From Fibrobacter sp. UWH4 (GTDB lineage: Bacteria > Fibrobacterota > Fibrobacteria > Fibrobacterales > Fibrobacteraceae), in assembly GCF_900142475.1 (NCBI RefSeq), contig NZ_FRAY01000008.1, forward strand, positions 1-64,000: DNA of 64,000 nt. The letters run 5' to 3'. The stretch's first letter is position 1, and each line of letters begins with the position of its first letter. This document shows positions 17,517 to 53,419 of the stretch, in pieces. The notes below the pieces were generated by a model. The model had not been told where the DNA came from. It saw nothing but the letters and a program-made list of their open reading frames with translations, and made no database searches. The position numbers and the translations under genes are program-made.

Positions 17517-17550
17517 TCTCTGTTCTCTTCAATTCTTTTTGGCTTTGGAT

Positions 17551-17623
17551 CCTTCGACTTCGATCAGGATGACACTTGATGAGTTCTTTATGGATTCTAT
17601 CCCCTTACAGGGTCCAGAATGAC
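17551..17623. repeat. Two REP-like intergenic elements between hsdM and hsdS
   Basis: CCTTCGAC...CAGGATGAC (17551-17573) and GGATTC...hairpin...AGAATGAC (17592-17623) are short palindrome-type elements. The second matches, reversed, the element at 52954-52981 inside the glycosyltransferase gene (same ends, different hairpin). They separate hsdM from hsdS and may affect the amount of hsdS mRNA. Confidence 0.6.
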
Positions 17624-22391: not shown

Positions 22392-22408
22392 AAGCGGCTA
22401 GCAGTGAG

Positions 22409-22451
22409 ATCCCCGCGGGGATGACAGGCGCCTCCGATGTCATCGATGACA
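22409..22451. repeat. Two perfect palindromes between convergent genes (REP-like)
   Basis: ATCCCCGCGGGGAT (22409-22422) and TGTCATCGATGACA (22438-22451) are perfect 14-bp palindromes. The first is a short form of the widespread GAGATCCCCG...CGGGGATGACA type of repeat. They separate the thioredoxin-like gene from the convergent fusion gene and may serve as a bidirectional terminator. Confidence 0.6.
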
Positions 22452-26577: not shown

Positions 26578-26601
26578 ATTTTCAGGGCAATTTAAAGATA
26601 G

Positions 26602-26632
26602 ATTGCCGCGTCGCCCCAAGGCGCCCTGCAAT
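26602..26632. repeat. REP-like palindromic element
   Basis: ATTGC (26602-26606) and GCAAT (26628-26632) flank an interrupted GC-rich stem (GCC..GGC). It resembles the AGATTGCCGCGTCGC...GCAATGACA type of intergenic repeat and sits between the beta-barrel and symporter genes. Confidence 0.5.
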
Positions 26633-26658
26633 GACAAGCTTTCTTATGGTCGCATAAT

Positions 26659-52030: not shown

Positions 52031-53419
52031 ATGGTCCAGAAAGTTCTCGTCATCGGGTCCGTCTATCCGCGTTTTCACGAAGACGCCGAAGTCCCCTGGC
52101 TGCGTACCTCCCTTGCGCACCTCAAGAAAGCGGGCCTCGACATCCAGGTTCTCGCCCCCGCATACAAAGGCCTTAAGAGCCACGAAATCGACGGCATCAA
52201 GGTGAACCGTTTCCGCTATGCGCCCGCCAACTGGGAAATGCTCACCCACGAAGAAGGCGCCCCCAGCAAGATGGCAAGCAAGCCCTGGCTGCAGCTACTC
52301 GCGATCCCTTACATCATCAGCGGATTCTTCAAGTGCATCAAGATCTGTCGCAAGTGGAAGCCCGACATCATCCACGCACATTGGCCGTTCCCGCACGCCT
52401 ACATCGCCCTCGGTGCCGCCAAGCTGTTCAGAATCCCGCTGGTCCTCAATTTCCACGGGGCGGAACTCCTGCTCATCCGCAAGAAAAAGTGGGTGAAGCC
52501 GCTCCTGAAATTCGCCATCGGCCAGGCGCAAGCCGTATTCGCAAATTCAAGTTTTACCGCAAGTAAAATCAAGGCCCTCCGCAATGTCGATGTGGAATGG
52601 AGCCCGTATGGCACGACTCTAGAAGGGGGAAGTCTCCCCCTCGCTTCTGCCACGGCATCCGCTACCCCCTCTAGCGGGCGGACAGCACTTAGCGATCCAT
52701 CGCTTAGTGCGCATGGCCACCAGGGTGGGGACACCCCGCAACGCCCCGTACCGCACCCGATAAACGGTAAGTTCAAGATTCTTTTTGTCGGGCGCCATAT
52801 CGAACGCAAGGGCATTCGCTACCTCATCGAGGCCGCCAAGTACCTGCCACGCGACCAGTTCGAAATCCGCATCGTCGGCGTCGGCGACCTCACCAAGCAG
52901 CTGAAGATGCAGGCAGATGCATTGTGTGATCACAATGGGAAATCCCCAGTCGCGTCATTCTCGACCAACGGGAGGGAATCCAGTAGATGCGGATCCGACG
53001 ATGCCTTAAATAGCGAAGCCGCACCTCCTGCAGAAATCATTTTTACCGGCAAACTTTCGCCCGAAGCGCTCGCGAACGAATACAAGACCGCTAACGTCTT
53101 CACGCTCCCGGCGATTGTCGACAGCAAGGGCGACACCGAGGGCCTCGGCGTCGTCCTCATCGAGGCCATGGAACTCGGCCTCCCCATCGTCGCAAGCAAC
53201 GTGGGCGGCATCCCCGATGTCGTCGTGGACGGCGTCTCGGGAATCCTCGTTCCCGAAAAAGACCCCGAGGCCCTCGCAAGCGCCTACAAGCGCCTCGCCG
53301 CCGAGCCCGAGCTTGTAAAGCACCTGCTCGCCGGCTCCCGTAAGCGCATCGCCGAATGCTTCACCTGGGACGGCATCATCGAGCGCCAAATCGCAGTCTA
53401 CAACAAGCTCTCGAAATAA
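52031..53419 (+). CDS. Glycosyltransferase family 4 with two inserted segments
   Basis: A 462-residue GT-B enzyme. The acceptor half has LPWLRTSLAHLKKAG-like and HAHWPFPHAYIALG segments; the donor half has ILFVGRHIERKGIRYLIEAA, VFTLPAIVDSKGDTEGLGVVLIEAMELG (E-x7-E motif) and GIPDVVVDG. It transfers a sugar onto an envelope glycan or lipid. Two in-frame insertions interrupt conserved regions: residues about 197-238 (LEGGSLPLASATASATPSSG onward) and about 302-325 (HNGKSPVASFSTNGRESSR); see the two repeat entries. Without them it would be a normal 390-residue GT4. Confidence 0.88.
   Translation: MVQKVLVIGSVYPRFHEDAEVPWLRTSLAHLKKAGLDIQVLAPAYKGLKSHEIDGIKVNRFRYAPANWEMLTHEEGAPSKMASKPWLQLLAIPYIISGFFKCIKICRKWKPDIIHAHWPFPHAYIALGAAKLFRIPLVLNFHGAELLLIRKKKWVKPLLKFAIGQAQAVFANSSFTASKIKALRNVDVEWSPYGTTLEGGSLPLASATASATPSSGRTALSDPSLSAHGHQGGDTPQRPVPHPINGKFKILFVGRHIERKGIRYLIEAAKYLPRDQFEIRIVGVGDLTKQLKMQADALCDHNGKSPVASFSTNGRESSRCGSDDALNSEAAPPAEIIFTGKLSPEALANEYKTANVFTLPAIVDSKGDTEGLGVVLIEAMELGLPIVASNVGGIPDVVVDGVSGILVPEKDPEALASAYKRLAAEPELVKHLLAGSRKRIAECFTWDGIIERQIAVYNKLSK
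52621..52740 (+). repeat. Palindrome-rich in-frame insertion in the glycosyltransferase
   Basis: Four hairpins in a row: GGGGGA/TCCCCC (52625-52640), CCGCTA/TAGCGG (52659-52677), CACTTAGCGAT/ATCGCTTAGTG (52686-52709, one mismatch) and GGGTG/CACCC (52723-52736). The stretch is translated in frame as a Ser/Gly/Ala/Pro-rich loop. It looks like a mobile palindromic element tolerated in a surface loop. Confidence 0.6.
52937..52995 (+). repeat. REP-like element inside the glycosyltransferase
   Basis: GTCATTCT...GGGAATCC (52954-52981) with a CTCGACC/GGGAGGG-like stem is the reverse of the intergenic element at 17592-17623 (GGATTC...AGAATGAC). Here it is read in frame. This is direct evidence that the same repeat family occupies both coding and non-coding sites. 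Confidence 0.55.

Follow-up and report, generated by a model that had tools for sequence, protein, structure and literature searches.

The locus described here raises the question of how palindromic repeats scattered between genes come to be translated inside a conserved enzyme, and what lets them persist there. The window is a stretch of 64,000 nucleotides from contig C8 of the 3.7-Mb genome G000, which its orthologues in named records place in the genus Fibrobacter. A sequence-only reading had described REP-like palindromic elements translated in frame within a GT4 glycosyltransferase; this was borne out, as the gene is intact and the genome-wide search which that reading had proposed found many further copies. 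We consider it highly probable that several dispersed repeat families, chiefly of the CGTC/TGTC REP-like type, have been repeatedly copied into Fibrobacter genes and persist in tolerant loops.

The host gene (Table 1) was placed in glycosyltransferase family 4 by its Pfam domains and by a GT-B fold found with AlphaFold2 and Foldseek, the closest solved folds being BshA and MshA (5d00, E=1e-21). The AlphaFold2 model, built from 50 orthologues, predicts the GT-B core well (pTM 0.81, most of the core with pLDDT >90), and pLDDT drops below 50 at residues 199-235, 305-317 and 319-326, which are exactly the inserts. Loop 1 lies between the two Rossmann domains, leading from the final strand of the N-terminal domain into the strand that opens the C-terminal one, and loop 2 lies within the C-terminal domain, between helix 288-303 and strand 335-340. 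Ser/Gly/Thr-rich loops tolerated between conserved GT4 parts had been predicted from the sequence, and the model places them accordingly, at the interdomain junction and in the helix-strand gap. The invariant residues R255, K260, E370 and E378 are all outside the loops, which are probably at the surface and away from the active site. Core dN/dS was 0.04-0.14 between close pairs, which points to strong purifying selection on an enzyme that is presumably functional.

Table 1. Repeat elements in the window and the gene that hosts them; C4, C7 and C11 are other contigs of the same genome.
Feature	Position	Strand	Details
GT4-type glycosyltransferase, host gene	52031..53419	+	462 aa, intact, GT-B fold; Pfam PF00534, PF13439
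Element A, left part, loop 1	52622..52678	+	codes ..GGSLPLASATASATPSSG; copies C4:129707, C4:391820, C7:87194, others
Element B, nested in A, loop 1	52679..52731	+	codes RTALSDPSLSAHG; hairpin 52685-52710; best copy 86% over 58 nt
Element A, right part, resumed after B	52727..52748	+	codes GDTPQRP; 100% copies C7:87115, C11:19458
Loop 2 variable segment	52911..53037	+	codes ADALCDHNGKSP...EAAPPAE; palindromic stretch 52919-52938
CGTC-tagged REP-like copy in loop 2	52953..52984	+	29 nt 100% at C4:301520-301548, 19 further matches
Intergenic copy, same family as loop-2 element	17592..17623	-	TGTCATTCTGGACCCTGTAAGGGGATAGAATCCA
Second intergenic copy, adjoining 17592..17623	17547..17573	-	TGTCATCCTGATCGAAGTCGAAGGATCC
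Intergenic TGTC-tagged copy	22407..22425	-	TGTCATCCCCGCGGGGATC
Intergenic TGTC-tagged copy, F2-like ends	26600..26635	-	pattern scan

Loop 1 (about 52622-52755) consists of two elements, A with B nested in it. The nesting follows from the pattern of genomic matches: C4:129688-129769 and C7:87115-87223 are among the places where the two parts of A are contiguous (in the C7 copy the right part adjoins the left), and B has separate copies of its own, such as C5:337548-337605. A without B occurs in the orthologues L012 and L002. In total, the loop-1 DNA has 44 further partial matches in the genome, mostly intergenic, the best being 86% over 58 nt and 100% over 30 nt. Of the Fibrobacter orthologues of the glycosyltransferase, 14 carry the left part of A, read in the same frame, and it is also present in FeoB (L053). 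Folded as DNA, the segment is more stable than dinucleotide shuffles (z = -3.0), with hairpins, perfect or nearly so, at 52625-52640, 52685-52710 and 52723-52737 and a long pairing of 52619-52629 with 52665-52674 (CTAGAAGGGGG/CCCCCTCTAG); four hairpins had first been described here, and the loop consists of two nested elements and not one. Between species, the stem of A in this loop has undergone compensatory change (GCCGC/GCGGC vs GCTGC/GCAGC).

The loop-2 insert (about 52919-53031) reaches further than first noted and carries GCGTCATTCTCGACCAACGGGAGGGAATCCAGT at 52952-52984. Its DNA has 20 other matches in the genome, mostly intergenic, the best being 100% over 29 nt. The whole segment folds no better than shuffles (z = -0.4), so that "hairpin" is a weak description of it, and it is called a repeat because of its genomic copies and not its folding. 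The loop-2 sequence CGTCATTCTCGACCAACGGGAGGGAATCCAGT and the intergenic element at 17592-17623 share their ends in inverse orientation. The claim that one is the reverse of the other therefore stands for the ends, which match the reverse complement (GTCATTC...GAATCCA), but not for the middle, which differs. When 49 matches to the loop-1 and loop-2 repeats were examined, 42 were wholly intergenic, one partly overlapped an ORF and six were inside ORFs.

The nearest sequence family for the GTCAT-type elements is that of the CGTC/TGTC-tagged REPs (Di Nocera et al. 2013, PMC3733652), a superfamily that includes dRS3, RPE-4 and RPE-6 (PMC3733652). Both have a GTC tag followed by AT, a complementary AT before a CC(A) tail, and a mostly intergenic distribution with some intragenic copies. 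A window copy reads CGTCATTC...GAATCCAGT, with CGTC/TGTC-REP ends, and the intergenic copy TGTCATTCCCGCGAAAGCGGGAATC has the form of this family. In 464 kb there were 32 GTCATxyz...zyxATCY sites; shuffled sequence had 3-11, and each of seven control tags 2-11. An 8-9 bp stem with a 4-5 nt loop is present in some copies (TGTCATCCCCGCGTATGCGGGGATCC), whereas in the main Fibrobacter families the stem is longer and compound, made of a 4-5 bp outer stem and a hypervariable inner hairpin. No CGTC/TGTC tag was found in elements A and B or in the heptamer arrays described below, and these are outside that REP family.

CGTC/TGTC REPs are reported to lack a dedicated transposase, and intragenic REPs have already been reported in other species (PMC3733652). 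A shared insertion site was described there for one gene pair (recB), whereas in Fibrobacter it is seen in three genes across the genus; Fibrobacter has no mention in the text of that paper, and we found no earlier report of the repeat, its peptides or Fibrobacter palindromes in the open-licence literature. The GTAG REPs associated with RAYT are likewise short dispersed palindromes, but the copies examined here are tagged GTC and G000 (100% complete) gave no match to Y1_Tnp, the RAYT transposase. Y1_Tnp is present in 4 of 12 Fibrobacter congeners, whose four RAYT loci have just one nearby REP, and RAYT was rejected as the source of the repeats in G000.

Comparison with 59 distinct Fibrobacter orthologues separates the loops from the core. 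Recognised repeat matches numbered 83 in 12.1 kb of loop vs 0 in 62.9 kb of core, and 37 of the orthologues contain at least one, the same two loops holding at least five unrelated repeat kinds or none. The orthologues do not have these segments in common, and neither of the two outcomes that would have spoken against the sequence-only reading, segments conserved across orthologues or repeats with no other genomic copies, was observed. Loop 1 ranges from 20 to 108 aa and loop 2 from 16 to 71 aa; in outgroup families they are short (18-31 and 18-19 aa, respectively). Depending on the species, the loop peptides read CHPERSE..., VILSESEGSS, VILNEREDNLKRRESQPCLHGYDRASKV, CHCEEQGDEAIQ, VIANEVKQSN, SLPLASAADAASATPSSG or LRHDEGEATRVE. 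Many species have (GACGAGA)n heptamer arrays, of which DERRETRDER is a translation; in Fibrobacter such heptanucleotide tandem repeats are translated in frame, adjoining or between palindromic elements. On the core tree the TGTC-REP in loop 2 requires a minimum of 13 changes, while in loop 1 element A requires 9 and the heptamers 11; these are upper estimates of insertions, as filled loops could also pass from one species to another by homologous recombination.

The closest relative, G060, is about 95% identical in the core and shares A+B in loop 1, where it has in addition a heptamer array before A+B and another palindromic element after. Its loop 2 is bare (21 aa, no insert). No clean target-site duplication was found at the G000/G060 loop breakpoints, which are blurred. 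The bare loop 2 of G060 (L227; the counterpart of 52911-53037) contains LASESATPNSA, encoded by a palindrome (TTCGGAGT..ACTCCGAA) that may be an ancient remnant.

Two families were followed through the phylum with strict searches. Of 37 Fibrobacter genomes, 36 contain F1 and 32 contain F2, and the rest of the phylum sample has neither, save for F2 in G055; control patterns written in reverse had no matches. This genome, from another family of the phylum, has 27 F2-type repeats, possibly by transfer or by independent spread. In G000, 3 of 26 F1 copies are genic, as are 9 of the first 30 F2 copies; the latter use all six reading frames, and therefore no peptide is being conserved. The F1 repeat (GTCATCCTGAGC...GAAGGATC) has fixed outer arms and an inner hairpin whose sequence varies by copy and is almost perfectly paired. 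In 28 equal-length copies from several species, the inner 5-bp stem pairs in 96-100% of copies per position vs 41-90% in shuffled columns; the signal was weak when only the stem lengths of inner palindromes were tested. A stem that diverges yet remains paired indicates that the structure is kept via compensatory change. According to published proposals, template switching at quasi-palindromes gives rise to such pairing and preserves it (PMC8794818) and changes coding sequence (PMC8604942); it may act on the Fibrobacter F1 and A elements.

The effect had at first been seen in one GT4 only; the GT4 loops were confirmed, and TrpCF, HemC and other genes proved to be hosts as well. In a 464-kb sample, about one eighth of the genome, 13 REP-like copies of two main families lie wholly inside 11 genes, vs 0 in shuffles; gene calls were our own, and in most cases domain matches flank the inserts on both sides. 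By extrapolation there would be around 100 genic copies per genome. Domain searches identified the hosts as DusA, TruB, DNA topoisomerase III (TopB), CoaD, HemC, TrpC-TrpF, a GSCFA protein and the GT4, and further as HrpB (two copies), a CbiX/siroheme-synthase-like protein (two copies) and the siroheme decarboxylase AhbA/B. The CoaD copy is a C-terminal extension and not a loop, and the AhbA/AhbB copy is genic in one gene call and intergenic in another; at L115:4656-5654, AhbA and AhbB seem to share a single open frame, in which an F2 repeat occupies the linker that joins them. Among the six ORF-internal matches mentioned above, two come from a single A copy in FeoB, as its halves and in the same frame, and another is in PriA. 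In FeoB (L053:607-3063), element A (EGESLPLAPAANAASATPSSGDTPQRPE) is in the frame that it has in the glycosyltransferase of the window, and PriA (L064:1096-3063) has an A-like element adjoining an F2 element in its N-terminal region.

Two of these hosts have recurrent sites. HemC, the porphobilinogen deaminase (L115:300-1274; L164-L193), has one hot site after its second domain, filled across the genus by at least four kinds of insert or by none, the peptides including CHCEGDSPKQS, RHPEECSDEGSS and HSEQREESS. The TrpC-TrpF fusion (L117:9248-10882; L194-L223) has three insert sites across the genus, of which the interdomain linker has one and TrpF the other two, and repeat-derived peptides are found at all three. 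Its orthologue in G025 (L223) carries a long tandem array of the KPGMTAEG type.

According to the explanation that we prefer, repeats would insert without regard to function and selection would then filter the inserts, so that a copy would survive where the frame is kept, the frame read has no stop, and the loop or linker tolerates extra residues. The GT4 loops quickly gain, lose and replace elements around an enzymatic core under strong purifying selection. Copies may arise through a transposase acting in trans or through ectopic recombination or conversion. That six frames and unrelated families are used argues against a selected peptide, and the inserted peptides are presumably neutral.

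Alternatively, each loop may have received one old element that was later rewritten by gene conversion or template switching, its variety being the product of conversion in place. The common ends of the TGTC-type elements favour conversion, nearly all HemC variants are in one frame (CHPE/RHPE/CHCE), and inner stems that differ by copy yet stay paired are what template switching can produce (PMC8794818). We nevertheless consider this unlikely, since A, B, heptamer arrays and R6 are unrelated families and yet are found in the same loops, sisters have bare loops, and frames differ within the GT4 loops (CHPER, VILSE, VIARN, ASFST).

It is less probable by far that selection favours diverse loops, for instance because they vary an interaction or regulate the enzyme, and that the repeats serve as raw material for this. 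The standard deviation of GT4 length is indeed 28 aa, far above the 0-3 aa of two neighbours and the 13 aa of a third, for which just five orthologues were compared, and loops are filled in many species; but they are also bare in many, the six frames yield no common peptide, and the same pattern occurs in the housekeeping biosynthetic enzymes HemC and TrpCF.

Removal of the inserts before or after translation, intein-like or at the RNA level, would leave the protein unaffected, and hairpins could in principle be RNA-processing sites. We found no support for it and regard it as very improbable: in each examined orthologue the GT4 inserts are open in frame and free of stops, a property required only of translated sequence, and the unrelated short families have no common splice or intein features. 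The insert-bearing enzymes are predicted to be translated through the inserts and to be active. That these are ordinary low-complexity or disordered loops resembling repeats by chance, as their Ser/Gly/Thr/Ala-rich composition and predicted lack of fold might suggest, is scarcely credible and was rejected on the 86-100% DNA identity to dispersed genomic copies, the repeat-free 63 kb of core and the absence of strict palindromic families from shuffles.

The copying of repeats into tolerant loops recalls the Rickettsia palindromic elements (Ogata et al. 2000, 2002; reviewed in PMC10969869 and PMC2229807), a likeness already drawn from the sequence. It holds for the mode, as in both cases several palindromic families occur intergenically and in frame in conserved genes and are tolerated by the protein; TruB, the tRNA pseudouridine synthase, is even a host in both (PMC3733652). 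It fails for membership, as sequences, hosts and sizes differ: Rickettsia elements are about 100-150 nt long and reside in an obligate intracellular parasite, whereas Fibrobacter F1 and F2 are mostly 25-50 nt, in a rumen or gut host of another phylum. Rickettsia elements have an ORF with a conserved peptide; in Fibrobacter there is no single one, F2 occurring in six frames and different peptides at one site. Unlike Rickettsia elements, several families occupy the very same loop across one genus. The Fibrobacter repeats are Rickettsia-like in kind but are not Rickettsia elements, and the label "selfish" would presumably suit them.

A further reading, which we put forward tentatively as possible but not probable, is that loops of Fibrobacter core enzymes are preferred landing pads where unrelated families replace each other and palindromes renew themselves in place. 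Template switching would act as if rebuilding the hairpin, the inner stem being unique to each copy and almost perfectly paired. If so, protein loops would permanently be places where repeats arise and turn over, and new peptide would continuously arise in essential enzymes of a host that is not an obligate intracellular parasite.

Rickettsia and a few species rich in REPs are the best-known cases of intergenic palindromes translated inside genes. Fibrobacter, a gut cellulose digester with genomes of 3-4 Mb, offers a large-scale case at fixed places in core enzymes. In annotation, CHPERSE, VIARSEATKQS, SARND and similar peptides should be recognised as translated repeats when they occur in Fibrobacter proteins. 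Sister versions with bare and filled loops are natural pairs for testing the neutrality of inserts, their copying and the seeding of new protein sequence.
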